From Nitratireductor arenosus (GTDB taxonomy: Bacteria > Pseudomonadota > Alphaproteobacteria > Rhizobiales > Rhizobiaceae): a stretch of 64,000 nt of DNA. The stretch spans positions 842,001 through 906,000 of the forward strand of contig NZ_WPHG01000001.1 of the NCBI RefSeq assembly GCF_009742725.1. The letters run 5' to 3'. The translations under genes and the position numbers were made by a program. The notes beneath the pieces are model-generated. The model made no database searches, was not told where the DNA came from, and was given only the letters and a program-made list of their open reading frames with translations. Positions 11,050 through 53,242 of this stretch are shown here, one piece after another; position 1 is the first letter of the stretch, and each line of letters opens with the position of its first letter.

Positions 11050-11772
11050 TCAGGCGAAATATTGTCCGCCATTGGCGGTAATCGTCGAACCGGTGATGAA
11101 GCCGGCATCGTCGGATGCGAGGAAGACCACGCAGCGTGCGATCTCGGCCGCTTCGCCGAGGCGTCCGACCGGAATTTGCGCGATGATGGATTCGCGTACC
11201 TTCTCCGGCACGGCCATAACCATGTCGGTCCCGATATAGCCGGGGCAGATCGCGTTGACGGTAATGCCGTTGCGCGCGCCTTCCTGGGCCAGCGCTTTGG
11301 TGAAGCCGAGATCGCCGGCCTTGGACGCGGAATAGTTGGCCTGGGCGAACTGACCCTTCTGACCATTGATGGAGGAGATGGTGATGACGCGGCCGAATTT
11401 GCGCTCACGCATGCCGTTCCACACCGGATGTGTCATATTGAAGACGCCGTTGAGATTGGTGTTGATGACGTCGGTCCACTGGTCCCTGGTCATCTTGTGG
11501 AACGGCGCGTCGCGGGTGATGCCGGCATTGTTGACCAGGATGTCGACCGGCCCGAGATCGGCCTCCACCTGGGCGATGCCGCCCGCGCAGGCCTCGTAAT
11601 CGGCCACGGACCATTTGTAGACCGGAATCCCGGTCTCGGCGTTGAAGCTCTGCGCCGCTTCGTCATTGCCGGCATAGTTGGCCGCAACCGTGCAGCCAGC
11701 CTCCTTGAGCGCGACGGCTATTGCCGCCCCTATGCCGCGTGTTCCTCCTGTGACGATCGCCGTTCTGGCCAT
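11050..11772 (-). CDS. phaB: Acetoacetyl-CoA reductase (NADPH)
   Basis: 240 residues, a classical short-chain dehydrogenase: TGGTRGIG nucleotide loop, NNAG, catalytic Ser and the YSASK active site (Tyr about 150). The overall sequence is recognisable as PhbB/PhaB (KWSVADYEAC, FHKMTRDQW, NGQKGQFGQ-like NGQKGQFAQ). It reduces acetoacetyl-CoA to (R)-3-hydroxybutyryl-CoA, the second step of PHB synthesis. It lies 129 bases downstream of phaA on the same strand. The polymerase gene phaC is not in this window. Confidence 0.95.
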   Translation of the reverse strand: MARTAIVTGGTRGIGAAIAVALKEAGCTVAANYAGNDEAAQSFNAETGIPVYKWSVADYEACAGGIAQVEADLGPVDILVNNAGITRDAPFHKMTRDQWTDVINTNLNGVFNMTHPVWNGMRERKFGRVITISSINGQKGQFAQANYSASKAGDLGFTKALAQEGARNGITVNAICPGYIGTDMVMAVPEKVRESIIAQIPVGRLGEAAEIARCVVFLASDDAGFITGSTITANGGQYFA

Positions 11773-11901: not shown

Positions 11902-13089
11902 TCAGTTCATCGCTTCCACGCACATGGCGACCCCCATGCCGCCGCCGATGCACAATGTGGCTAGGCCTTTTTTCGCCCCACGCCGCTGCATTTCGTGAAC
12001 CAAAGTGTTGAAGATGCGCGCGCCGGACGCGCCGATCGGATGGCCGATCGCGATCGCGCCGCCATTGACGTTCACGATATCCGGGTTCCAGCCCATATCC
12101 TTGTTGACCGCGCAGGCCTGCGCGGCGAAGGCCTCGTTCGCCTCGACCAGGTCGAGATCCTCGGCCTTCCAGCCGGCCCGTTCCAGCGCCTTGCGCGAGG
12201 CCGGGATCGGGCCTGTACCCATGACCTTCGGGTCGACGCCGGCGGTTGCCCACGACACGACGCGCGCCAGCGGCTTGACGCCGCGCCGCGAAGCCTCTTC
12301 CTCGCTCATCAGCACCGCGGCAGCCGCGCCGTCATTGATTCCCGAGGCATTTGCCGCCGTGACGGAACCCTCCTTGTCGAAGGCCGGCCGCAGCTTCTGC
12401 ATGGCCTCGATGGTGGCACCATGGCGGATATATTCGTCGGCATCCACTACGATGTCGCCCTTGCGCGTCTTGATCGTGACGGCGACGATCTCGTCCTTGA
12501 ACTTGCCGGCTTTCTGGGCGGCCTCCGCCTTGTTCTGCGAGGCGAGCGCGAACCGATCCTGATCGTCGCGGGTAATCTGGAACTGGCGCGCCACGTTCTC
12601 CGCCGTCACGCCCATGTGATAACCGTTGAAGGCATCCCACAATCCGTCCTTGATCATGGTGTCGATCATGGCGTAGTCGCCCATCTTGACGCCGGCACGA
12701 AGATGCTGGCAGTGCGGCGACAACGACATCGATTCCTGTCCGCCCGCGACGATGATCCGGGCGTCTCCGGTAGCGATCTGCTGCATGCCGATCGCGATCG
12801 CCCTGAGGCCCGATCCGCATACCTGGTTCAGCCCCCAGGCGCTGGTTTCCTTGGGCATGCCGGCGGCCATCGACGCCTGACGCGCCGGGTTCTGACCCTG
12901 GCCGGCCGTCAGCACCTGGCCGAGGATCACCTCGTCGACCTCGGCCGGCTCCACGCCGGCACGCGCCAAAACTTCCTTAAGCACGACCGCGCCGAGATCG
13001 TGCGCGGGCGTATTGGCGAACGCGCCGTTGAAGGAACCGACCGCCGTGCGCGCGGCGCTGGCAATGACGATGGAGGGCGAAACGGACAT
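11902..13089 (-). CDS. phaA: Acetyl-CoA acetyltransferase (beta-ketothiolase)
   Basis: 395 residues from [20 protein letters not shown], with GGGAGA before the ATG. Active-site Cys 91 lies in [11 protein letters not shown], the His in [12 protein letters not shown], and the second Cys in TLCIGGGMG. It condenses two acetyl-CoA to acetoacetyl-CoA, the first step of PHB synthesis, and also works in the reverse, degradative direction. It forms an operon with phaB and is divergent from phaR. The shared 235-base gap contains a candidate PhaR-type site. Confidence 0.96.
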
Positions 13090-13212
13090 CTTGGTCTCCC
13101 TGTGTGCGGGGCATATCGCAACTTTGTTGCCCTTAGCATGGCGCGAGTCAAATTCGAAATGTGTCGCGGGGCGCATCCGCCCCGGCAAATGCCCCGCCGA
13201 TCCGGACGCTGT

Positions 13213-13225
13213 TTCCTGCAGTGCA
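13213..13225. promoter_or_regulatory. Candidate PhaR-type operator between phaA and phaR
   Basis: TGCAGTGCA at 13217-13225, continuing into CAAA at 13226-13229. Read on the minus strand it is TTTGTGCACTGCA. The bdhA promoter carries TTTGTGCATCGCA, so 11 of 13 bases are identical. TGC/GCA-rich targets are known for PhaR of Paracoccus. Binding here is inferred from the shared core and the position between phaA and phaR. Confidence 0.5.
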
Positions 13226-13324
13226 CAAATCGCTTTTCATTGATGCGGTTTTGCGCATATCCTGAAATATGCGACATGTCGCGACCGCTGACGAAGCATC
13301 GTTTCGGCAATCTGGGAGGTTCGC

Positions 13325-13939
13325 GTGCCTGGCAAGGACGATCCGGTGATCATCAAGAAATACGCCAACCGTCGCCTCTACAATACAGGCACATCCACCT
13401 ATGTGACGCTCGAGGATCTGGCCGAAATGGTCAAGCGCGGCGAGGATTTCACCGTTCAGGACGCCAAGTCCGGCCAAGACATCACCCATCCCGTGCTGAC
13501 ACAGATCATTTTCGAACTCGAAAACAAGGATGGGCAGAACATGCTGCCCGTTTCCTTCCTGCGGCAACTGATCTCGTTTTACGGCGACCAGATGCAGATG
13601 ATCGTGCCGAGTTTCCTCGAGCAGTCGATGTTCGCCTTCGCCAAGGAGCAGGAACGGTTCCGCGAACAGATGAAGGATGCCATCGGTAAGGCTCCGATGG
13701 ACATGATGGGCATGTCGACGCCAATGAAGGCGATCGAGGAACAGACCCGCCGCAACATGGAAATCTTCCAGAACGCGATGCGCATGTTCACGCCCTTTCC
13801 CGCGACCGTGTCGCAGGAAGGGCCCGAAACATCCGAACAGGCAGCGTCCAAAACGGAGGAAGCGACCGACGATCTGCGCGACCTGAAGGAACAGATCGCC
13901 GCCATGCAGCGCAAGATCGATTCAATGGACAAGGGCTGA
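13325..13939 (+). CDS. phaR: PHB synthesis regulator PhaR
   Basis: 204 residues from a GTG with GGGAGG 5 bases upstream. The N-terminal ~60 residues (IIKKYANRRLYNTGTSTYVTL) are the PHB/PHA accumulation DNA-binding domain. The next block (VLTQIIFELE...MLPVSFLRQLISFY) is the PHB-binding region, and a coiled-coil tail follows (DLKEQIAAMQRKIDSM). PhaR (AniA in Sinorhizobium) represses phasin and other PHB genes when no free polymer surface is available and leaves DNA when it binds polymer. Its divergence from phaAB is the conserved arrangement. Confidence 0.97.
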   Translation: MPGKDDPVIIKKYANRRLYNTGTSTYVTLEDLAEMVKRGEDFTVQDAKSGQDITHPVLTQIIFELENKDGQNMLPVSFLRQLISFYGDQMQMIVPSFLEQSMFAFAKEQERFREQMKDAIGKAPMDMMGMSTPMKAIEEQTRRNMEIFQNAMRMFTPFPATVSQEGPETSEQAASKTEEATDDLRDLKEQIAAMQRKIDSMDKG

Positions 13940-14170
13940 ACCTCCCCGACTGGTTCGACGGCGATCGCAAAACCCTCTTTCAAATACTGCTTTGTGCGGC
14001 ACCACGGCGGCGGGCGCCCCCGCTTCGGTGGCCGTGCCGTCTGCGACGATGGCGGACGACCGCACCGACCCGACCCCTCCCGATCGGTGAAACTATTTCG
14101 ACCGAACGCTCCGTACAGAACCGGCGGCGGGTCCAATATAGCTGTCGGCACATGGAAACGGGAGAGCCCC

Positions 14171-14602
14171 ATGAGCGACCTGAAACTCGAAACCGCCAAC
14201 ACCATCATCGAAACCGCCTTTGCCAAGGGGGCGGAGACCGGTCTGAAACCGCTCGCCGTCGCCGTACTCGACGCCGGCGGGCACCTCGTCGCCTTCCAGC
14301 GCCAAGACCTGTCCTCGCTGATGCGTTTCCAGATCGCGTTCGGCAAGGCCTATGGCGCACTCGCCCTGGGCATGGGCACGCGCGCCGTGGATACGATGGC
14401 TCGCGAGCGGCCGCATTTCATGGCCGCGCTATCGGATGTCGCCGGCGGCCGCCTCGTTCCGGTACCCGGCGGCGTTCTGATGCGCGACGGTTCCGGCCGA
14501 CTTATCGGCGCGGTGGGCGTTTCCGGCGACACGTCCGACAATGACGAAGCCGCCGCGGTCGCCGGCATCGAGGCCGCCGGCCTCGTCGCGGATGGCGGCT
14601 GA
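14171..14602 (+). CDS. GlcG/HbpS-family (heme-degrading-like) protein
   Basis: 143 residues from an ATG with GGGAGAG upstream. The sequence pattern (LAVAVLDAGGHLVAFQRQD, GKAYGALALGMGTR, GGRLVPVPGGVLMRDG, GAVGVSGDTSDNDE) is that of the GlcG/HbpS fold, a profilin-like domain. Some members bind or degrade heme and others lie in glycolate or diol operons. No signal peptide is visible, so it is probably cytosolic. There is no functional operon partner here; the convergent membrane-protein gene ends 4 bases away. The biochemical role is unassigned. Confidence 0.8.
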   Translation: MSDLKLETANTIIETAFAKGAETGLKPLAVAVLDAGGHLVAFQRQDLSSLMRFQIAFGKAYGALALGMGTRAVDTMARERPHFMAALSDVAGGRLVPVPGGVLMRDGSGRLIGAVGVSGDTSDNDEAAAVAGIEAAGLVADGG

Positions 14603-14606
14603 GGGA

Positions 14607-15008
14607 CTAGTGAAAGCTGACGTCGCGGCCGGCCGAGCGGATCGACACCGAAAACCCGGCGATCAGATCGACCAGCGTGATCACCATCAGGATGAAGAAC
14701 ACCGAGTGCGCGGCGCCGCGCACCAAAAGGAACTCGACCAGGAAGGCGACGAAGACGAAAGTGGACAACAGATGATCGACGACCGACGCGTTCGAGGTGC
14801 GGGTCGATTTCATGATTTCCAGGAACAGGAACACCAGCCCGATCACGATCATCAGATCGCCGAGCGTCATGGCGAAAACGCCGCCCGACATCATGGCGAG
14901 CGAGAATATCTCCTGCGCCCAGGGATCGTCGCCGCCGCCGAACATGCCGGCAAGGCCAAGATTGTAGAGAATGAAGGGAATGATCAGCAGGGGGGCGATG
15001 CCCAGCAT
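14607..15008 (-). CDS. Small four-helix membrane protein, function unknown
   Basis: 133 residues, nearly all hydrophobic, with four predicted membrane segments at about 3-22, 34-63, 82-97 and 102-122, linked by a short polar loop (MKSTRTSNASVVDHL). I do not recognise a named family. It lies just downstream of rpmF on the same strand, but the rpmF terminator separates them, so it is probably a separate unit. Confidence 0.65.
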   Translation of the reverse strand: MLGIAPLLIIPFILYNLGLAGMFGGGDDPWAQEIFSLAMMSGGVFAMTLGDLMIVIGLVFLFLEIMKSTRTSNASVVDHLLSTFVFVAFLVEFLLVRGAAHSVFFILMVITLVDLIAGFSVSIRSAGRDVSFH

Positions 15009-15113
15009 GGCGCGGCTCCGTTGCGGAAAGACCCCTTCGTGTCACCACCACACGACCGGCGTCAAGACGATCATGCCGCCGCGACGCATCGCTTGCACCC
15101 ATGCAGACGCAAA

Positions 15114-15135
15114 AAGACCGGCCGGAGCCGGTCTT
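15114..15135 (-). terminator. Rho-independent terminator of rpmF
   Basis: Stem AAGACCGGC / GCCGGTCTT with a 4-base loop. Read on the minus strand, the stem is followed by a run of T (TCTTTTTGC). It lies 25 bases beyond the rpmF stop codon. Confidence 0.8.
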
Positions 15136-15160
15136 CGACATGCGGCGCGAAAGAAAAGCC

Positions 15161-15343
15161 TCAGCTTTCCTTGGGCTCCAGCACCTGGCGACCGCGATAC
15201 ATACCGGTCTTCAGGTCGATATGATGTGGGCGCCGCAATTCGCCGGAATTGCGATCCTCGACATAGGTCGGTGCCTTGAGCGCATCGGCGGCGCGACGCA
15301 TGCCGCGCTTCGACGGCGAAGTTTTTCGTTTCGGTACAGCCAT
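15161..15343 (-). CDS. rpmF: 50S ribosomal protein L32
   Basis: 60 residues: [18 protein letters not shown] at the N terminus is the diagnostic L32 start, followed by the rhizobial-type ending. It is a component of the large ribosomal subunit. The zinc-ribbon cysteines found in some L32 proteins are absent, as in other Rhizobiales. It lies downstream of mtgA on the same strand with a 164-base gap and its own terminator, an arrangement common in Rhizobiales. Confidence 0.97.
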
Positions 15344-15507
15344 GGACCTGCTCCATCACTCAAATCAATGCCCGCCGCGCCCTTCAGGAAAGGACCGTAT
15401 TTCGACAGGTCAACATCTGGAAAGTCGCGTGCCTATACACGCTGCCACGGCACTTGACCAGTCGAAACCGTCACTTTTTTTCGCGCGGCGCCGCAGCCCT
15501 GCCCCGC

Positions 15508-16209
15508 CTAGCGCACGCATCCGATATAATCGCCGGCGCCCGCCGCGCGCTTTTCGATGATCGAGGCGAGCCGGTTCAGCCCCTTGCTGGGTTTGGCCGG
15601 GTTTCGCTCGACCGGATTGGGTAGGGTGACGGCGAGAAGGGCCGATTGGCGGCGCGTCAGCTTGCCGGCCGAGCGGTTGAAATGATGTTGAGCGGCCGCC
15701 TCGGCGCCATAGACGCCCGGAGCCCATTCGACGATGTTGAGATAGATCTCCATGATGCGCTTCTTTGGCACGATTGCGTCGAAAACCAGCGCGAGCGGCG
15801 CCTCAATCGCCTTTCTCAGCAGAGACCGGCCGTGCCACAAAAACAGGTTCTTCACCGTCTGCATGGGAATAGTGGAGGCCCCGCGCGTCGGCTCCCCCGA
15901 CAGGGCATCGTCGATGACCACGTTGAGTTCGCCCCAGTCGATGCCGCGATGGGAACAGAACTGCCCGTCTTCCGACATCATCACCGAGTGGATAAGCACC
16001 GGCGCGATGTCCTCGATCGGCACCCAGCGCCGCTGGTATGACGTGCCCGTCACCAGATCCCGGACCATCAGCGTCGAGACCGGATGGATTGCCGGCCAGA
16101 CATAAAGCAGCGACAGCGCCAGCGGTAGCAGGGCGATCGCCATGCAGGCCGCGACCACGCGCCGCAGCCATGTCGTCCATCTCGATTTGCGCCGTTTGCG
16201 CCGTGCCAT
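15508..16209 (-). CDS. mtgA: Monofunctional peptidoglycan glycosyltransferase
   Basis: 233 residues from an ATG preceded by GGAGGAG. A basic N terminus ([10 protein letters not shown]) leads into a single membrane anchor at about 17-38. The GT51 domain follows with the catalytic Glu 80 in MMSEDGQF, the GASTIPMQ motif and [10 protein letters not shown]. It polymerises lipid II into glycan strands at the periplasmic face; there is no transpeptidase domain. It is divergent from the prenyl diphosphate synthase gene, which supplies precursors of the undecaprenyl carrier, giving a loose functional link. Confidence 0.95.
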
Positions 16210-16369
16210 GCGCTCCTCCGCCAGCGGCCGCTTGTCCGGACTCCGGGCCGGATCAACGTTGTCTAGCGCACATAAATCGGCGCTACCATCCATGGAACCG
16301 CGGGCGCCCCTGCGGATTGCCGCGGCCGATGGACTTGACCGCGCGCGAAATTGTCGCCATCGCACCCTC

Positions 16370-17287
16370 ATGACGACCGAGCTTTCCGCCCTGTTCGAAC
16401 AGAGCCTCGCCATGCGCGCCGAAACCGTCGAGTCGGTGCTGCGCGGGCTTTTCGACGATCGCGCGCGCAACGGCGAGATAGCGCGGCCGCCCCGGCTGAT
16501 GGCCGCGATCCGGCACGGCGTTCTCAATGGCGGCAAGCGCCTGCGTCCCTTTCTGGTCATGGAAAGCGCGGCCCTGTTCGGCGCAGCACCCGAGGCGGCG
16601 GCCCATGTCGCGGCGGCGCTGGAATGCGTGCATTGCTACTCGCTGATCCACGACGACCTGCCGGCGATGGACGACGACGATCTGCGACGCGGCCAGCCGA
16701 CCGTGCACCGCGCCTATGACGAAGCGACCGCCATTCTTGCCGGCGACGCGCTTTTGACGACAGCCTTCGATATCCTGTCCAGCAGCGATTTCGAGCTCGC
16801 CGACACGACACGCCTGATCCTGGTACGGGGTCTGGCGCGCGCCGCCGGCATCGGCGGCATGGTTGGCGGACAGATGCTCGATCTGGCCGCCGCCGCGGCC
16901 CCGCCCGACGAAACGGGGGTCATCACGCTGCAGGCCATGAAGACGGGGGCGCTGCTGCGTTACGCCTGCGAGGCCGGCGCCGTCGTCGCCGGCGCGAGCG
17001 CGGCCGATCGGGAGCGCCTGTCCGAATTCGGCGCGGCTGTCGGTCTCGCCTTCCAGCTCGCCGACGACCTGCTCGACCTGACCTCCGACGTGGCGACCCT
17101 CGGCAAGGCCGCCGGCAAGGACGCCGGCGCCGGCAAGGCGACGCTTGTCGGCCTCAACGGACCGGCCTGGGCGCGCCGCCAGCTCGATGGCCTGATCCTG
17201 CAGGCCGAAACGCTGCTTGAGCCGTTCGGCGCCGACGCCGCGATGCTGACGGCGGCGGCGCGTTTCATCGCCGACCGCAAATCTTAG
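16370..17287 (+). CDS. ispA: Farnesyl/geranylgeranyl diphosphate synthase
   Basis: 305 residues. The first Asp-rich motif is DDLPAMD at residues 95-101, with the two extra residues typical of bacterial type farnesyl diphosphate synthases. GGKRLRP (54-60) and the second motif ADDLLD (about 228) complete the trans-prenyltransferase site. It condenses IPP with DMAPP/GPP, most likely giving farnesyl diphosphate; product length cannot be read with certainty. The start is a conserved-looking [11 protein letters not shown], because the long upstream frame lies inside mtgA. ispG follows 3 kb away. Confidence 0.9.
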
Positions 17288-17405
17288 CGCGCTCGGGCTG
17301 AGCAATCCGGTTTCCTGACAAGGCGGATATTCGAACGCGAGCCGGCCCTTCGCATTCGGCTCGATTGACGCCCACCCCGAGTTGCATTGCCCGGTCAGCA
17401 CAGCG

Positions 17406-17420
17406 TTAAGCTGAATTTAA
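17406..17420. promoter_or_regulatory. Perfect CtrA box upstream of the hybrid kinase
   Basis: TTAA-GCTGAAT-TTAA is an exact TTAA-N7-TTAA, the binding consensus of the alphaproteobacterial cell-cycle regulator CtrA. It lies 52 bases before the probable ATG. It overlaps a small palindrome TGAATTTAATTCA (17412-17424), and TTCAATTTGAA follows at 17430-17440. Regulation by CtrA is an inference from the motif and location. Confidence 0.5.
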
Positions 17421-17471
17421 TTCAACGCATTCAATTTGAACCATCTGTCTGAGTGCGGAGTGGACGTGTCG

Positions 17472-20003
17472 ATGTCCTCAAAGATTACGCGCGCCTATAT
17501 GCGCGGGCGCCTCTATACGGTTCTGATCAGTTTCGTCCTGGCGGTCGCCGTCGGCACCGGCTTCATTTTGTGGAAACTCGAAAACGCCAAGATCGACGTC
17601 AAATTCGGCGCGGTGATCGGCTATATGGCCGAAGCCACCAGCGACGTCATCTACCAGTCGCTACGACTGGAACATCTGAGCGCCAATCTGCAATCGCAAG
17701 CGCGAAACGGTGTGACCGTGACCATGGCGCCGGCCCCCGGTCCGACCCCGCTCGGGGCGGCCGGGCCGGCCGATGTCGACGCCGTTCACGCCGAGCTGGC
17801 CGCGGCTCTCAAGCGGCTGGAGCACGCCTACGACACGTTGGAGAGGTCGTCCGGCGCCGAGCGCCAGATGCTCGAAAGCCGCCGTATCGCCATCGCGGAG
17901 GATGGCGACGCGATCCAGGCGCCGCTGGAGCGCATCGACACCGTCTTCGACGCCATCGCCGGCCTCCGGGTCCCGGCGGCCATCCGCCAGGTCTGGGAAG
18001 ACACCGGCAACGGCGTGTCGCTGAAAGCGGAAATCCGCCAGGTGCTGACGCTCGCCAACCGCCTGGAGATTTTCTCCGATTATACCGCGCCGAGCGCGCA
18101 GCGCGTCTTCCGCGAGCTGCAGCAATTGGCCAACCGCACCATCAAGCCGCATCTGGCGCTGATCCAGGACGATCTGCACGAGGACATGGCCTACAGCTAC
18201 ACCACCTTACAGTGGTTCATGGTCCTGGTCGGGCTCACCATCGTGCTGGCGAGCGCACTGGTTGGCCTGCGCGTCCTCGATCCGATGATGCACAAAGTAG
18301 CCACCACGCACGAAAATCTGCGCGAGGCGCATGAATCGATCGAGGCCGCCCTCAAACGAGCCGAATCCGCCGACCGGGCCAAGTCGGAGTTTCTGGCCAA
18401 TATGAGCCACGAGATCCGCACGCCGATGAACGGTGTGCTCGGCATGGCGGAACTGTTGTCGCGCTCGGAGCTGGACAAGCGCCAGGCGATGTTCGTCGAC
18501 GTGATCTTGAAGTCGGGTAGCGCGCTCCTGACGATCATCAACGACATTCTCGATTTTTCCAAGATCGACGCGGGACAGCTCGAACTCGACCCCGCGCCCT
18601 TCCGTCTCGGCGAAGCGATCGAGGATGTCGCCACGCTCGTTTCGGCTCGGGTCGCCGAAAAGGACCTCGAGCTGATCGTGCGCGTCGATCCGCATCTGCC
18701 TTCCTCCGTCACTGGCGATGTCGGTCGTTTCCGCCAGATCGCCACCAACCTCGTCGGCAATGCGGTGAAATTTACCGAAAAGGGCCACGTACTGGTCGAC
18801 GTTTCGGGCACCGTCGAAAAGGGCGTAGCCAGCGTGACGGTACGGGTGGAGGACACCGGCATCGGCATTCCCGAGGCCAAGCTCGCCTGCGTTTTCGACA
18901 AATTCGCCCAGGTCGACGCCTCATCCACGCGCAAGCACGAAGGAACCGGACTCGGCCTCGCAATCGCCTCACGCCTCGTCGAACTGATGGACGGCGAAAT
19001 CGCGGCTGAAAGCGCGCTCGGCAAGGGATCAGCCTTCTGGTTCACGATCAGACTTCCGGTCGACGAGGCCGACATCGGCAACAAGCCCGTTCCCTACGAC
19101 GTCTCCGGCGCCCGGGTTCTGATCGTCGACGACAACCCGATCAATCGGGACATCCTGTCCGAGCAGATGCACAGCTGGGGTTTCGAATGCGCTGCCGTCG
19201 AAAGTGGCGAAACCGGGATCGCCTTCCTGAAAAGGGCATCGGAACTTGGCGCGCGGGTCGATTGCGTGGTGCTCGACTACCAGATGCCGGGTATGAACGG
19301 CGTCGAGACGGCGCGCGCGATCACCACCGATCCGGCCACCGCCGCGATCCCGATGCTGCTCTTGACCTCCGTGGATCAGTCCGATGTCAGCCGGCTTGCC
19401 ACCGAATGCGGCATCGCCGCGCAATTGCCCAAGCCGGCCCGCTCCTCCGCGCTGCTCGAAGCGCTGGTCTCGGTGTTGCAATCCGCCCGCGCAGCCGCCG
19501 CGATGCCCGAGGAAATGCCGGTCACGCTGAATTCCCGCGTGCGGACCAACCTCGTTCCGGCCCAGGCCGTCGAGCGCCGCATCTCGGTGGCCTCGCTCAG
19601 AAAAGCCCCTGATCTCGACGTACTGGTGGCCGAGGACAACGAAGTCAACCAACTCGTCTTCCGGCAGATTCTCGACGGTCTCGACCTGTCCTACCGCATC
19701 GCCTCCAACGGCCGCATGGCCGTCGATATGCACCGGTCGTTGCGCCCCAAGGTAATACTGATGGACGTGTCGATGCCCGAAATGAACGGGCTTGAGGCGA
19801 CGCGAACCATCCGCAAGGCCGAGGCGGGAACGGGTGAACACACCCCGATCATCGGCATCACCGCCCATGCGCTCAAGGGCGATCGCGACAAATGCCTGGA
19901 AGCAGGGATGGACGACTATCTGTCCAAGCCGGTATCGCCGAACAAGCTGTCGATCAAGATCGAGACCTGGCTGCGCGGCGGCGACATGGCCCGCACCGCC
20001 TGA
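17472..20003 (+). CDS. Hybrid sensor histidine kinase with two receiver domains
   Basis: 843 residues from the ATG; a GTG 6 bases earlier has better spacing from GGAG and is possible. Membrane segments lie at about 9-29 and 245-265 and enclose a ~210-residue helical periplasmic sensor. HisKA has its His at about 313 (NMSHEIRTPMNG), followed by a full ATPase domain (GTGLGLAI). Receiver 1 has its phospho-Asp at about 602 (LDYQMPGMNG). Receiver 2 has it at about 765 (MDVSMPEMNG). There is no PAS or Hpt domain, so a separate phosphotransfer protein is needed. No partner gene is adjacent. It is convergent with ispG. Confidence 0.93.
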   Translation: MSSKITRAYMRGRLYTVLISFVLAVAVGTGFILWKLENAKIDVKFGAVIGYMAEATSDVIYQSLRLEHLSANLQSQARNGVTVTMAPAPGPTPLGAAGPADVDAVHAELAAALKRLEHAYDTLERSSGAERQMLESRRIAIAEDGDAIQAPLERIDTVFDAIAGLRVPAAIRQVWEDTGNGVSLKAEIRQVLTLANRLEIFSDYTAPSAQRVFRELQQLANRTIKPHLALIQDDLHEDMAYSYTTLQWFMVLVGLTIVLASALVGLRVLDPMMHKVATTHENLREAHESIEAALKRAESADRAKSEFLANMSHEIRTPMNGVLGMAELLSRSELDKRQAMFVDVILKSGSALLTIINDILDFSKIDAGQLELDPAPFRLGEAIEDVATLVSARVAEKDLELIVRVDPHLPSSVTGDVGRFRQIATNLVGNAVKFTEKGHVLVDVSGTVEKGVASVTVRVEDTGIGIPEAKLACVFDKFAQVDASSTRKHEGTGLGLAIASRLVELMDGEIAAESALGKGSAFWFTIRLPVDEADIGNKPVPYDVSGARVLIVDDNPINRDILSEQMHSWGFECAAVESGETGIAFLKRASELGARVDCVVLDYQMPGMNGVETARAITTDPATAAIPMLLLTSVDQSDVSRLATECGIAAQLPKPARSSALLEALVSVLQSARAAAAMPEEMPVTLNSRVRTNLVPAQAVERRISVASLRKAPDLDVLVAEDNEVNQLVFRQILDGLDLSYRIASNGRMAVDMHRSLRPKVILMDVSMPEMNGLEATRTIRKAEAGTGEHTPIIGITAHALKGDRDKCLEAGMDDYLSKPVSPNKLSIKIETWLRGGDMARTA

Positions 20004-20042
20004 CAGTGCGGGACGCTTCCCGCGTCCCGTGCCGGCGCCGCC

Positions 20043-21296
20043 CTATTCGGCCGCGTCGGTGCCGGCACGGCCGAACCGGCGCTCGACATAGTCGGCGACC
20101 ATTTGTTCGAATTCGGCCGCGATCGCCGGACCGCGCAGCGTCGCCGCCTTGCGGCCGTCGATGAAGACAGGCGCCGCCGGCGTCTCGCCGGTACCGGGAA
20201 GCGAGATGCCGATATCGGCATGCTTGGATTCACCCGGTCCGTTGACGATACACCCCATCACCGCGACCTTCAGCTCCTCCACGCCGGGATATTTGTCGCG
20301 CCAAACCGGCATGTTTCGGCGCAGATCGGCCTCGATCTTCTGCGCGAGTTCCTGAAAAACGGTCGACGTCGTGCGGCCACATCCGGGACAGGCTGCCACC
20401 ACCGGCACGAATTGCCTGAAACCCATGGTCTGCAGGAGTTCTTGCGCCACCTGCACCTCCCGCGTGCGGTCGCCGCCCGGCTCCGGCGTCAACGAAATGC
20501 GGATCGTGTCGCCGATCCCCTGCTGCAAAAGCAGGCCCATCGCCGCCGCCGACGCCACCACGCCCTTGGTGCCCATGCCCGCCTCGGTCAGACCAAGATG
20601 CAGCGCATGGTCCGAGCGGCGCGCCAGCTCCGCATAGACGGCGACGAGATCCTGAACCTGGCTCACCTTGGCCGACAGGATGATCCTGTCGGGCCCGAGC
20701 CCGATCTCCTCGGCGAGTTCGGCCGACAACAGTGCCGACTGCACAATCGCCTCGCGGGTGACTTCCGCCGCCGTCCTCGGTGAGCCGGCCCTCTGGTTCT
20801 CGTCCATCAGCCGGGTAAGCAGTTCCTGGTCGAGCGAGCCCCAATTGACGCCGATGCGCACCGGCTTGTCGTGCCGGATCGCCATCTCGACGATATCGGC
20901 GAACTGACGGTCCCGCTTTTCCCTGAAGCCGACATTGCCGGGATTGATCCGGTACTTCGCCAGCGCCTCGGCGCAGCCCGGATGGTCGGCGAGCAGCTTG
21001 TGGCCGATATAGTGGAAGTCGCCAATCAGCGGCACCTCAATGCCGAGGCGCGCCAGACGGTCGCGGATTTTCGGGACTGCGGCGGCGCTTTCGTCGCGGT
21101 CGACCGTGATGCGGACCAGCTCCGAGCCGGCGCGATGCAGCGCGGCCACCTGCGCGACTGTGCCGTCGATGTCGGCCGTGTCGGTGTTGGTCATCGACTG
21201 CACCACGACCGGCGCTTCGCCGCCGACGAGGACGGAACCGACCGTCACGCCGACCGATCGGCGACGCGGCAGCGGGGAGGAAAGATAGCCGGTCAT
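20043..21296 (-). CDS. ispG: 4-hydroxy-3-methylbut-2-enyl diphosphate synthase (flavodoxin)
   Basis: 417 residues. Family hallmarks are [23 protein letters not shown], the [4Fe-4S] ligands CPGCGRTT plus [10 protein letters not shown], and the C-terminal ADIGISLPG segment. It reduces MEcPP to HMBPP, the penultimate step of the non-mevalonate isoprenoid pathway, and feeds the prenyl diphosphate synthase encoded nearby. It is divergent from bdhA across a 222-base gap. The start was placed at [12 protein letters not shown], with GGAG 10 bases upstream. Confidence 0.95.
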
Positions 21297-21431
21297 GGCC
21301 GGGCTCCATGGGGAATTGCTGTTGATATCGAGTTGGCGAAGCGGCACGGCGATGTCAACCGCGTCGGCCGATGATCCTTATCACGAAAATCGTGAAGGCA
21401 GGCGACTGGAAATGCCGGTTCCGCCGCGCCA

Positions 21432-21448
21432 TTTGTGCATCGCACAAA
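21432..21448. promoter_or_regulatory. Palindromic candidate PhaR operator upstream of bdhA
   Basis: TTTGTGC-ATC-GCACAAA, a perfect 7+7 inverted repeat 71 bases before the bdhA start. A second TGC/GCA-rich stretch (TGCTAATGCATCGCAGCA) follows at 21452-21469. The left 13 bases match the phaA-phaR site except at two central positions. The gene context (PHB synthesis and 3-hydroxybutyrate use) makes PhaR the natural candidate, though this is not proven. Confidence 0.55.
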
Positions 21449-21518
21449 GTTTGCTAATGCATCGCAGCATGACGCGCAAGACAACGAAGTCAATCGAACA
21501 CGCAAGGAGATTCGACCC

Positions 21519-22301
21519 ATGAGCCAGCGCAAGACCGCCCTCGTCACCGGGTCCACGTCGGGCATCGGCCTCGCCATCGCCGAACGGTTTGCCACAGACG
21601 GCTTCAACGTGGTGCTGAATTCCTACACCGACGACGGCCAGGATCACGCGCTCGCCGCCGAACTGTCGGAAAGACATGCGGGCGCGGTGGTTTACATCCA
21701 GGCCGACATGTCGAAACCCGACCGGTGCCAGGCGCTGGTTGCGGCCGCCGCCGAGCGTTTCGGCACGGTCGACGTGCTCGTCAACAATGCCGGCATCCAG
21801 CATGTCGCCCCGGTCGAGGAGTTCGCGCCGGAGAAATGGGACGCGATCATCGCCATCAACCTGTCTTCGGCCTTCCACACCATCGCCGCCACCGTGCCGC
21901 TGATGAAGAAGGCCGGAACCGGGCGCATCGTCAACATCGCCTCCGCGCACGGCCTCGTCGCCTCGCCTTTCAAATCGGCCTATGTGTCGGCCAAGCACGG
22001 TATCATGGGCCTGACCAAGACGGTGGCGCTCGAACTCGCCACGCACAGGATCACCTGCAACGCGATCTGCCCCGGCTATGTGCTGACCCCGCTGGTCGAG
22101 GCGCAGATTCCCGACCAAATGAAGGCGCACGCCATGGACCGCGAAACCGTCATCCGCGAGGTCATGCTCGACAGGCAGCCGACCAAGGAATTCGCCACCG
22201 TCGAGCAGATCGCCGCGACCGCCGCCTTCCTCGCTTCCGACGCCGCCGCCCAGATCACCGGCACGCATATATCGGTCGATGGCGGCTGGACGGCCGCGTG
22301 A
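21519..22301 (+). CDS. bdhA: 3-hydroxybutyrate dehydrogenase
   Basis: 260 residues from an ATG with AAGGAGA upstream. Short-chain dehydrogenase with TGSTSGIG, NNAGIQHV, catalytic Tyr 155 (YVSAKHG), and the BdhA-typical NAICPGYVLTPLVEAQI and SVDGGWTA ending. It oxidises (R)-3-hydroxybutyrate to acetoacetate with NAD+, the step that follows PHB depolymerisation. It is followed 36 bases later by a patatin-like gene on the same strand. It should feed acetoacetate toward the thiolase, and its promoter shares a palindromic core with the phaA-phaR region. Confidence 0.95.
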   Translation: MSQRKTALVTGSTSGIGLAIAERFATDGFNVVLNSYTDDGQDHALAAELSERHAGAVVYIQADMSKPDRCQALVAAAAERFGTVDVLVNNAGIQHVAPVEEFAPEKWDAIIAINLSSAFHTIAATVPLMKKAGTGRIVNIASAHGLVASPFKSAYVSAKHGIMGLTKTVALELATHRITCNAICPGYVLTPLVEAQIPDQMKAHAMDRETVIREVMLDRQPTKEFATVEQIAATAAFLASDAAAQITGTHISVDGGWTAA

Positions 22302-22337: not shown

Positions 22338-23465
22338 ATGACTAAAAAAGGCGACGGGGCGGAGCGCAAGTCGGTCAATGTCGCGCTTCAGGGCGGCGGC
22401 TCGCACGGCGCCTTCAGCTGGGGTGTGCTCGACTGCCTGCTCGAGGACGGCCGGCTCGACATTGCCGCGATCTCCGGCACAAGCGCGGGCGCGATGAACG
22501 CCGTCGCGCTCGCCGACGGCTGGGTCCGGGGCGGTGCCGACGGCGCGCGCGCCAAGCTGCACGACTTCTGGCGCGCGGTCGCCCGCAAGGGCCGCTTCAG
22601 CCCGGTCCAGCGCATGCCGTGGGATGTGGCGCTCGGCAATTGGTCGGTGGAAAACACCCCCGGCTATCTGTGGTTCGAAGCCATGTCGCGCACCGTGTCG
22701 CCCTATGCCGCCAACCCGCTCAACATCAACCCGCTGCGCGACGTGGTCGAACACGAAATCGATTTCGACCGCGTGCGCGCCTGCGACGCGATCCAGCTCT
22801 TCGTGTCCGCCACCAATGTCCATACCGGCAAGCTGAAAGTGTTTTCCACCGCCGATCTGTCGCTCGACGTGGTCATGGCCTCGGCCTGCCTGCCGCAGAT
22901 GTTCCAGGCGGTGACCATCGACGGCACCCCCTATTGGGACGGCGGTTATGGCGGCAATCCGGCCCTTTACCCCTTCTTCGAGGCGAACCGGGTCGAGGAC
23001 CTGCTTCTGGTTCAGATCAATCCGGTCACCCGCGACACCACGCCGGTCACCGCGACCGAGATCCAGAACCGCATCGACGAAATCACCTTCAATGCCGCGC
23101 TTTTGAGCGAGTTCCGCGCGATCGCTTTCGTCAAGAAGCTGATCGCCACCGGCAAGCTCGGCCACGGCGACTATCGCGACATCCGTATGCACCGCATCGA
23201 TGCCGACGAAGCGCTGAAAGGTCTGACGGCGGCCTCCAAGGTCAATGCCGAATGGGCTTTCCTGGAATATCTGCGCGATCTCGGCCGTTCCGCCGCCCAG
23301 GACTGGCTGGACGAGAATTTCGATGCCGTCGGCGTGCGTCAGACCCTGCCGATCGAGGAGGAACTCGACAAGGCCCCGCTCGGACACCCGCGCGCCCTCG
23401 GCCACAGGGTGCGCGAATTCCTGGCCGGACGGCCCAGGCCGGCGGCCATGCGCGATCAGGGCTGA
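22338..23465 (+). CDS. Patatin-like phospholipase/esterase
   Basis: 375 residues. It shows the oxyanion loop GGGSHGAF, the nucleophile Ser 49 in GTSAG and the Asp 201 of DGGYGGN, the patatin Ser-Asp dyad. No signal peptide is visible, so it is cytosolic. It is co-directional with bdhA at 36 bases, very likely one operon. Families with this fold hydrolyse acyl esters of lipids. The pairing with bdhA suggests a link to PHB granule or hydroxybutyrate-ester turnover, but this is inference. Its last 10 bases overlap the convergent TetR gene. Confidence 0.85.
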   Translation: MTKKGDGAERKSVNVALQGGGSHGAFSWGVLDCLLEDGRLDIAAISGTSAGAMNAVALADGWVRGGADGARAKLHDFWRAVARKGRFSPVQRMPWDVALGNWSVENTPGYLWFEAMSRTVSPYAANPLNINPLRDVVEHEIDFDRVRACDAIQLFVSATNVHTGKLKVFSTADLSLDVVMASACLPQMFQAVTIDGTPYWDGGYGGNPALYPFFEANRVEDLLLVQINPVTRDTTPVTATEIQNRIDEITFNAALLSEFRAIAFVKKLIATGKLGHGDYRDIRMHRIDADEALKGLTAASKVNAEWAFLEYLRDLGRSAAQDWLDENFDAVGVRQTLPIEEELDKAPLGHPRALGHRVREFLAGRPRPAAMRDQG

Positions 23466-24061
23466 AGGGCGAGACCGACCAGTCGCACCAGCCGGCGCGC
23501 CGCCGGCGCCCATTCATCCGGCCCCTCGACGCGAGCCTTCATGCCCTCGATCCCGTCGAGCAGGAGGCCCGCCAACGTGTCGGCCGTAAAGCCGCGTGCC
23601 TCCAGGTCGACGGAACGCGCGGCCGCCTCGGCGGCGAGCGCCGTGGCGATGACGGCGATGAAGCGGCGGCGCCATTCAGCCATTTCAACCGCCGCCAAAC
23701 TGTTCTTGGCATCGAGGATTTCCGCGCCGTGCGGTGCTTCGAAAAACACCCGCATCATCGAAAACAGACTTTGCTCCAGACCGTCCATCAGCCTGGCCTC
23801 GATATCGCCGTCGCCGTTCAGGGCCCGTTCCAGCACCAACGTCGATTCGGCGAACTTCCGCGCGGCGATCGCCCGGTAGATGTCGCCCTTGTTCTTGAAG
23901 TCGAGATAAAGCGCCGGCCGCGACAGATCCGCCGCGCGCGCGATGTCGTCCATGGTCGTGCGCTGGAAACCATAAGCGAGAAACACCTTGACCGCGCCCT
24001 CCACGATGCGCTCGCGGCGTGCCTCGTCCGCGCCCTGCGCCGTCTTCAAATCCCGCTTCAC
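23456..24061 (-). CDS. TetR-family regulator, divergent from Mo-hydroxylase genes
   Basis: 201 residues from a GTG ([10 protein letters not shown]); a TTG at 24094 would add 11 residues. The N-terminal helix-turn-helix is clear ([41 protein letters not shown]). The ligand domain is unclassified. The gene is divergent from iorA-like/iorB-like genes with a 125-base gap, the usual position for an autoregulating repressor that controls the neighbouring operon. A TGAC-N15-GTCA inverted repeat lies at the promoter. Confidence 0.85.
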
Positions 24062-24094
24062 AACGATACCCGGAAGTCCCCGCAACCAAATCAA

Positions 24095-40402: not shown

Positions 40403-41527
40403 TCAGAGCTTACCCGGATAATAATGCTGGTAGGCCAGCCGGTAGTCCGGTGCGTTCTGCAGGCTGTAGAATACCACACGCTCGCACCAGACCTTCTGGC
40501 TTTCCACCACCTTGGCGAAGAACGGATCTTCCATCAGCGGCGGCAGGATCTCGTCCCAGGCGTCGAGCTGGGTCTTGAGCACATCGTCGGGTGTGCGCTT
40601 GACGTTAACGCCCGCCTCGTTCTGCAGCTTCTCCAGATCGGCGGAATATTGATTGAGAGCCAATGCGGTGTTTGCCAGATGCACGGCCTCGACGCCGTAT
40701 TTCAGGATCGCCTGGAGGTCGGGCGGCAGGCTTTCATATTTGTCCTTGTTGAAGATGAACTCGAAGGATTCGGAAGCCTGATGATAGGACGCAAGCATAT
40801 AGTTTTTGGCAACGTCCTGCGCCCCGAAGCGGCTGTCGGAGGTCGGGTTGTTGAACTCGAACGCGTCGATCACGCCGCGCTCCATCGCCGGCACGATCTC
40901 GCCGCCGGGCAATTGCGCCACCGCCGCCCCCATCGCCTGGAACAGATCGGCCGCCAGACCGACTGTGCGGTATTTCAGGCCCGCTACCTGATCGGCGCTG
41001 GTGATTTCCTCCTTGAACCACCCGAAAGGCTGCGCCGGCATGCCGAAGGCGAAGAAGCCGACAATGTTCAGACCCAGAACGTCCTGGGTGAGTTCGCGGT
41101 AAAGCTCGTGGCCCCCGCCATGGTACATCCACGCGATCATCTCGGTCGCATTGGCGCCGAAGACGGGTCCGGTTCCGAACAGCGAGGCGGCCTTGTTCTT
41201 GCCGTACCAATACACTGGAACCGTGTGCGCGGCATCCAGGATGCCGTCATGGCAGGCGTCCTGGACCTGGAAGGCGCCGACGACGGCGCCCGCCGGAAGC
41301 AGATCGATTTTCAGTCGCCCGCCGGCCATCTCCTCGACGCGTTCGACATATTGCTGGGCCATCTCCTGAAATATGTCAGAGGACGGCCAGGACGACTGCA
41401 TCTTCAACGTGATCGGCGCCTGCGCGAGAACGGCCGGAGCGGCCAGCGCGGTCGTCGCCGCCACGCCAGCACCGGCGATCGAGGTGTTTTTCAGAAAGTG
41501 CCGCCGCGAAATTTTGTCGGTCGTCAT
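40403..41527 (-). CDS. TRAP transporter substrate-binding protein, Tat-exported
   Basis: 374 residues with GGAGGAA before the ATG. The signal is a Tat signal: SRRHFLK (Arg 8-9), hydrophobic stretch, then LAAPAVLAQA. The mature DctP fold includes LKYRTVGLAADLFQAMGAA and LPGGEIVPAMERGVIDAFEF, where Arg and the GEI/GVIDAFE segments usually hold the carboxylate. It resembles TakP/FcbT1-type receptors for keto acids or aromatic acids. The ligand is not determinable. It is the first gene of the TRAP operon, with an AT-rich upstream region. Confidence 0.93.
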   Translation of the reverse strand: MTTDKISRRHFLKNTSIAGAGVAATTALAAPAVLAQAPITLKMQSSWPSSDIFQEMAQQYVERVEEMAGGRLKIDLLPAGAVVGAFQVQDACHDGILDAAHTVPVYWYGKNKAASLFGTGPVFGANATEMIAWMYHGGGHELYRELTQDVLGLNIVGFFAFGMPAQPFGWFKEEITSADQVAGLKYRTVGLAADLFQAMGAAVAQLPGGEIVPAMERGVIDAFEFNNPTSDSRFGAQDVAKNYMLASYHQASESFEFIFNKDKYESLPPDLQAILKYGVEAVHLANTALALNQYSADLEKLQNEAGVNVKRTPDDVLKTQLDAWDEILPPLMEDPFFAKVVESQKVWCERVVFYSLQNAPDYRLAYQHYYPGKL

Positions 41528-41955
41528 TTTTTCCTCCCTGATATGCGTATCGCGATGTTTCAGCAAAACAAGAATAATCTATATGAACATTTGCGCAATC
41601 CGGTGATTTTGATCAATTTTACTGCATCTGCGTCTAATACTAAAGTTTTAATTCCGAAAATGTTTTATCAAATGTTTGACTTGGCGGAACACTCGCAGCT
41701 TAGGAAGTGATCATCCGATTTTGCACTGCAAAAGCAGCGATGAATGGGGGATTACCACTTCGATTCAACAGCTTGCCGTCACGGTAGCCTGCGAACCCGG
41801 CTGCAGGGGTGGGCTGAACGGTGGCCGATATGAGCCTCACCCCGAGTTCACGCCGTGCGGAACCGGGAGCGCGTCACCGGTGGTCTTTTCGCGGCGCCGT
41901 CCGTCCTGTAGAACGCGATCTCGACAATGTGACAACGTTCCGGCGCCAGGTTCCA
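41528..41955. other. AT-rich intergenic region between TRAP and LysE genes
   Basis: 428 bases. 41545-41705 is strikingly AT-rich against the surrounding sequence and holds an 8-base direct repeat AAATGTTT (41658-41665 and 41670-41677) and an imperfect palindrome TCAAATGTTTGA (41668-41679). It probably contains the TRAP promoter and a regulator site. No regulator gene is adjacent. The right half (41710-41955) shows no recognised gene. Confidence 0.5.
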
Positions 41956-53146: not shown

Positions 53147-53242
53147 CCGCAGGCATGCTGGAGTCTCGCCAGCGGCGCCTGGGCGTATGACCGCGCGGTC
53201 CCGCCCGACACCGGACGAGACATGAGCAGTTAAGAGGAAAAC

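Follow-up and report, generated by a model that had tools for sequence, protein, structure and literature searches.

A 64-kb window of the 4.8-Mb genome of Nitratireductor arenosus (the whole stretch of DNA that was analyzed) contains two similar TGC/GCA-rich motifs, one between phaA and phaR and one in front of bdhA, and raises the question of whether a single regulator, PhaR, acts at both. An earlier note on this DNA had proposed from these motifs a small regulon tying PHB synthesis to hydroxybutyrate use, possibly together with the patatin gene behind bdhA. From one common gap, phaR points to the right and phaA, followed by phaB, to the left; 8 kb beyond it, bdhA and the patatin gene run rightward, and the gap in front of bdhA is shared with the divergent ispG. 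The features are listed below, with operator scores from a matrix built on phasin promoters.

11050 to 11772, minus strand: phaB, acetoacetyl-CoA reductase (TIGR01829, 366.2 bits against a cut-off of 302.1).
11902 to 13089, minus strand: phaA by position and class, an acetyl-CoA C-acyltransferase divergent from phaR (TIGR01930, 475.2 bits against 240.55; ATG start).
13212 to 13230, no strand assigned: candidate PhaR operator of the phaA-phaR gap, core TGCAGTGCA at 13217-13225, lying 108 bp before the phaR GTG (19.97 bits).
13325 to 13939, plus strand: phaR, PHB-responsive regulator (TIGR01848, 147.3 bits against 109.45; GTG start).
21431 to 21449, no strand assigned: candidate PhaR operator 1 of bdhA, containing TTTGTGCATCGCACAAA (23.71 bits).
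21453 to 21471, no strand assigned: weaker candidate operator 2 of bdhA, core TGCATCGCA at 21458-21466 (10.27 bits).
21519 to 22301, plus strand: bdhA, 3-hydroxybutyrate dehydrogenase (TIGR01963, 383.7 bits against 307.05; ATG start).
22338 to 23465, plus strand: patatin-like hydrolase, 36 bp past bdhA on the same strand (PF01734, 71.4 bits against 27.7).

The phaR of the window is the single TIGR01848 match in this genome, and its product carries the PHB_acc_N and PHB_acc domains, both above curated cut-offs (PF07879, 101.3 against 25; PF05233, 62.1 against 27). No relative of PhaR was detected among PDB sequences up to E = 1. For phaA, the narrower PhaA equivalog NF042967 scored below its cut-off. 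BdhA is 94% identical to its Nitratireductor alexandrii counterpart. A TetR-like gene (23456-24094), all of whose profile matches fell below curated cut-offs, lies past the patatin gene. Farther along the window, a ybhL leader (RF00520, 62.6 bits) was detected at 53150-53225 on the plus strand.

Direct reading of the window confirmed the two motif copies and their agreement at 11 of the first 13 bases: the minus strand at 13217-13229 reads TTTGTGCACTGCA, and positions 21432-21448 read TTTGTGCATCGCACAAA. The bdhA copy had been called a perfect palindrome; its two 7-base arms are exact inverted copies separated by a 3-base spacer (ATC), and it is not a strict palindrome. The bdhA promoter also holds a second core, TGCATCGCA, 22 bp downstream of the first and absent from the earlier note. 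Cores of the form TGCRNYGCA with AT-rich arms were found at 13217, 21436 and 21458, the fit of the arms being partial for one arm of the first site (TTTCC) and for both arms of the last. TGC/GCA-rich PhaR targets are known from other alphaproteobacteria, and both sites fit the published operator with its TGCRNYGCA core. Promoter scans found no sigma-70-like promoter at the phaA/phaR or bdhA site. From the sequence, we consider it highly likely that both motifs serve as operators for the PHB-sensing repressor PhaR, whose gene adjoins the first of them.

It is very improbable that a common 9-base core fell at these sites by chance. The bare core is not enriched across the window (12 occurrences, inside the range of 2 to 19 for permuted palindromes), so the core alone is not significant and flanks and position count. 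The 13-mer with two mismatches showed no excess over chance in the window (9 against 12.6 expected), and a relaxed 15-mer occurred at 97 places in the genome against 75 for the reversed control; as these relaxed scans ran near background, only strong sites were used. Against a chance origin, three of the 12 cores sit in the phaA/phaR and bdhA promoters, together about 400 bp, and the cores recur across genera with permuted controls near zero. TTTGTGCANNGCA without mismatch occurred twice in the window, compared with an average of 0.045 across 200 resamples under a first-order Markov model, none of which had two.

The two strongest sites are also the two best matches in the 64 kb to a 19-bp matrix made from 43 phasin-promoter cores of the family's other genomes, the genome under study being excluded; since the training sites were picked by the strict core, strictness at the core is built into the matrix. 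The bdhA site ranked first (23.71 bits), the phaA/phaR site second (19.97 bits) and a site upstream of a TRAP transporter gene third (16.9 bits), so that three matches of at least 14 bits were seen against about 0.5 expected per 64 kb, a rate at which many single matches in the genome would be chance. The third site, TTTTGCACTGCAAAA at 41717-41735, lies between a DctP-type TRAP solute-binding gene (40403-41566, minus strand) and a divergent gene. Other matrix matches were found near proS (20.3 bits), near a small open reading frame read as DUF1127-like that had no NCBIfam match (21.1 bits) and in a TetR/aldehyde dehydrogenase region (16.7 bits). None of these four is claimed as a target.

The motif also has partners elsewhere in the genome. 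There are three copies of the exact repeat TTGTGCN3GCACAA in 4.8 Mb, one at bdhA, one in the gap that separates two phasin units and one ahead of mmgR; 0.17 would be expected, given the base composition of 162 kb of retrieved sequence. The mmgR small RNA was identified by Rfam (RF00519, 67.1 bits against a gathering threshold of 41) at L050:4003-4118, about 160.5 kb into contig C1, between hisN and an N-formylglutamate amidohydrolase gene, and it begins 25 bases past the repeat at C1:160502. Its site scored 29.86 bits, equal-best with a phasin site among 14 promoter regions of this genome. Of 12 distinct TTGTGCANNGCA places in the genome, eight are at phaA/phaR, bdhA, phasins (three), acetoacetyl-CoA synthetase, ppa and mmgR, and four are at other loci (C4:3381, C8:639459, C9:571114 and C9:656617).

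The genome scan that the earlier note had asked for, over phasin, phaC, phaZ and related promoters, came out in its favor at the phasins and phaZ, but not at phaC. Twin cores stand directly upstream of three of the four Phasin_2 genes (on C8, C11 and the plus strand of C1). The fourth (C1:1130444, minus strand) has no core directly upstream, and the common pair precedes the adjoining upstream DUF445 gene. That phasin is in line with the DUF445 gene and with genes for an FMN-dependent dehydrogenase and a MaoC-type protein (L051:1059-4717, C1 at about 1.13 Mb); a second phasin runs divergently from this row, and twin PhaR-like cores occupy the gap between them. phaZ has TATTGCAATGCAGCAA about 99 bp upstream, the core upstream of the acetoacetyl-CoA synthetase gene acsA (TIGR01217) is weak (10.0 bits), and a core is present upstream of ppa. 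No core was found upstream of phaC, whose best matrix score was -0.76.

Recurrence was scored as a strict core within 250 bp upstream, with five permuted palindromes as control, in a family sample of G000 and 60 genomes, one per genus. Upstream cores were present at 25 of 38 bdhA genes (all matches, from 36 genomes including the one under study), or 24 of 36 once the genome under study and G016 were left out. They were likewise present at 25 of 29 phasins (the best-scoring, one per other genome, of 51 genomes with a match) and at 24 of 49 phaR genes (from 54 matches); permuted palindromes gave 0-2 in each case. The looser form YGCRNYGCR, counted without a permuted control, was upstream of 43 of the 49 phaR genes. 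As to whether the site serves phaR or phaA, the strict core was kept at two of four phaR loci without a phaA-like gene, a small set, and at 22 of 45 with one. For acsA (49 of 52 matches, 48 used), 8 of 48 had a core (permuted 0-2), five at -45 to -47, one at -24 and two beyond -160; as a family-wide target acsA is weak and was set aside.

In a second, named set (the best 80 of 582 loci, 79 used), which is rich in Mesorhizobium and hence non-independent, 46 of 79 bdhA genes had the core. In the family sample, 15 of the 27 bdhA cores were at -49 to -61, counted from the second codon. Among five plasmid-borne bdhA genes, a strict core was found in Sinorhizobium meliloti, R. leguminosarum and a Paracoccus (far upstream, at -204), and none in S. 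medicae and B. barranii. The bdhA promoters of some relatives likewise have two cores, spaced 19-23 bp. Across phasin and bdhA promoters of relatives, twin-core spacings of up to 40 bp were 19-23 or 29-31 bp, with none at 24-28 and single cases at 5 and 38, and many of the 23-bp cases stem from related Mesorhizobium. Such spacings, about two or three helical turns, suggest that binding takes place on a single face of the helix; published coordinates put the S. meliloti phaP1 and phaP2 pairs at 18 and 28 bp (PMC12542648), which argues against a strict spacing rule.

A variant with a longer spacer was seen outside the Hyphomicrobiales-like group. TGCN4GCA was upstream of bdhA in 16 of 36 named loci (L097, L104-L107 and L109-L141 less L111 and L138, from the best 80 of 582; permuted 1-2), and a spacer of 3 was present in 11 of the 36; spacers 1, 6 and 7 were likewise frequent there because of TGC repeats. 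One Pseudorhodobacter phaR region held mostly spacer-3 sites.

Since bdhA and ispG share a gap in this genome, where ispG is divergent and near, the operator could serve ispG instead of bdhA. Among the best 30 of 60 ispG matches, seven had an upstream core: 6 of the 12 whose locus includes bdhA and 1 of the 18 whose locus does not. The bdhA core is also retained in several relatives whose locus gave no ispG match (e.g., L064, L068 and L074). Control of ispG by this operator is accordingly very improbable, and the operator is better assigned to bdhA.

Whether the bdhA site follows the regulator was addressed in a sample of the order. The core was present at bdhA in 40 of 79 phaR-positive loci and in 1 of 11 phaR-negative ones (Fisher p 0.010, a value that ignores phylogeny and base composition). 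The negative set consists of three families and G016 and has a GC of 0.47 against 0.59 in the positive set, so that few families and AT-rich sequence confound the contrast. In the family sample, G016 had neither a phaR nor a phasin match and its bdhA lacked the core. The phaR-negative G121, which is 86% complete, had a core at bdhA. Of 34 phaR-positive families in the order sample, 20 had the core at bdhA at least once and 14 had it at no sampled bdhA.

A different regulator that also recognizes a TGC/GCA inverted repeat might control bdhA, the likeness to the phaA/phaR site being coincidental; the product of the TetR-like gene at 23456-24094 is one candidate. The TetR-like gene adjoins the bdhA-patatin pair, and bdhA promoters of Rhodobacterales often have a spacer of 4, unlike the published PhaR spacer. 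However, the bdhA site is the best match in 64 kb to a matrix built on phasins only, its exact repeat is common to phasin and mmgR promoters, and the core is rare at bdhA in the sampled genomes without phaR. We regard control by another regulator as unlikely and PhaR as the better candidate.

The suggested link to the patatin gene was borne out in that the two genes form a conserved pair. In 63 of 80 named loci (the best 80 of 582), bdhA is followed on its own strand by a patatin homologue, at a distance of up to about 320 bp in 62 of the 63 pairs and of 2185 bp in one. The motifs GxSxG and DGG/DGA were present in 60 and 62, respectively, of these 63 patatins. In the family sample, where loci are shorter, a patatin was seen past bdhA in 15 of 38. 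The patatin of the window matched only PlpD among PDB sequences at E of 0.01 or less, over residues 10-65, and had no additional Pfam domain at cut-off. On a Bradyrhizobium plasmid, a DUF3734-labelled gene, an acetoacetate decarboxylase gene and bdhA lie together.

The recurring arrangement makes the patatin gene behind bdhA a lead for a hydrolase of PHB mobilization, and we infer that it may be co-transcribed with bdhA and active in the PHB cycle. A broader reading, in which bdhA and patatin form a PhaR-controlled operon in many alphaproteobacteria, the patatin is a PHB-cycle hydrolase and PHB pre-loads its own degradation during storage, is tentative and somewhat doubtful. The enzyme might then be, for example, a 3-hydroxybutyrate-oligomer hydrolase or a granule-surface lipase between PhaZ and BdhA.

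Taken together, operator-like sequences, their partners across the genome, their recurrence in relatives and their rarity at bdhA in sampled phaR-less genomes were observed, and binding by PhaR, repression and titration by PHB would carry over from relatives. The PhaR regulon here very probably covers phasins and PHB degradation, as judged from the sites, which suggests one switch for granule coating, depolymerization and hydroxybutyrate reuse. In the proposed sequence of events, PhaR would occupy TGCRNYGCA operators when PHB is absent and repress the phasins, phaZ, bdhA-patatin, mmgR and perhaps phaR itself. Once granules form, PhaR would be drawn to their surface and the operators vacated, and phasins would be made along with the enzymes for the later conversion of PHB to 3-hydroxybutyrate and acetoacetate. 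If PhaR represses bdhA and patatin too, granules would thereby pre-load their own degradation route. The proposed regulon thus gained support from genome-wide partners and recurrence, but it is not small. A tie to PHB synthesis found no support: phaC here has no site, and phbA of S. meliloti is reported to be unaffected by phaR (PMC12542648).

Known systems supply the mechanism. In relatives, PhaR is described as repressing phasin and depolymerase genes, as binding PHB and as being removed from DNA by it (PMC12542648), and PhaR of R. eutropha is reported to repress phaR. The Bradyrhizobium diazoefficiens USDA110 consensus, TGCRNYGCASMA, came from DNase I footprints and promoter alignment (PMC6201568); the 12-mer TGCATCGCACAA of the bdhA site is identical to the phaP5 site listed in that paper, whose main text names bdhA once, as background. 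PhaR is a phasin repressor in Rhodobacter sphaeroides and Paracoccus denitrificans, and its R. sphaeroides operator is CTGCNNNGCAG (cited in PMC12542648). Published PhaR sites have a spacer of 3, unlike the TGCN4GCA frequent in Rhodobacterales-like bdhA promoters.

In S. meliloti, gel shifts by PhaR at phaP1, phaP2, phaZ, SMa1961 and mmgR were lost upon mutation, mmgR was PhaR-repressed with its promoter bound by PhaR, and the phaR/phbAB region gave a weak shift; in the phaR mutant, the phbA promoter was unaffected and the phaR promoter was slightly lower, not higher (PMC12542648). In the main text of that paper, neither bdh nor acsA2, acetoacetyl-CoA synthetase or patatin gave a match, and a search of open-access main texts (PMC12542648, PMC6201568, PMC10888616 and PMC5596199) found bdhA nowhere among the targets of PhaR. 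The pSymB record of S. meliloti has one core about 42 bp before bdhA. PhaR (AniA) of S. meliloti shares with the system here its repressor family, the YGCRNYGCR core and AT-rich arms, and twin-site phasins, phaZ and mmgR, which are bound in S. meliloti (PMC12542648), are likewise predicted targets here. ppa is in the S. meliloti site list, where binding was not evaluated, and has a core here too; phbC of S. meliloti lacks a site, like phaC here (PMC12542648). The regulator, the operator type and the logic are thus already known, and, as far as the open-access texts go, what seems to be new is the bdhA-patatin pair as a predicted PhaR target that recurs widely. With it, the regulon of the storage polymer would reach the first enzyme to act on the monomer once released, and a directly testable set of targets follows.
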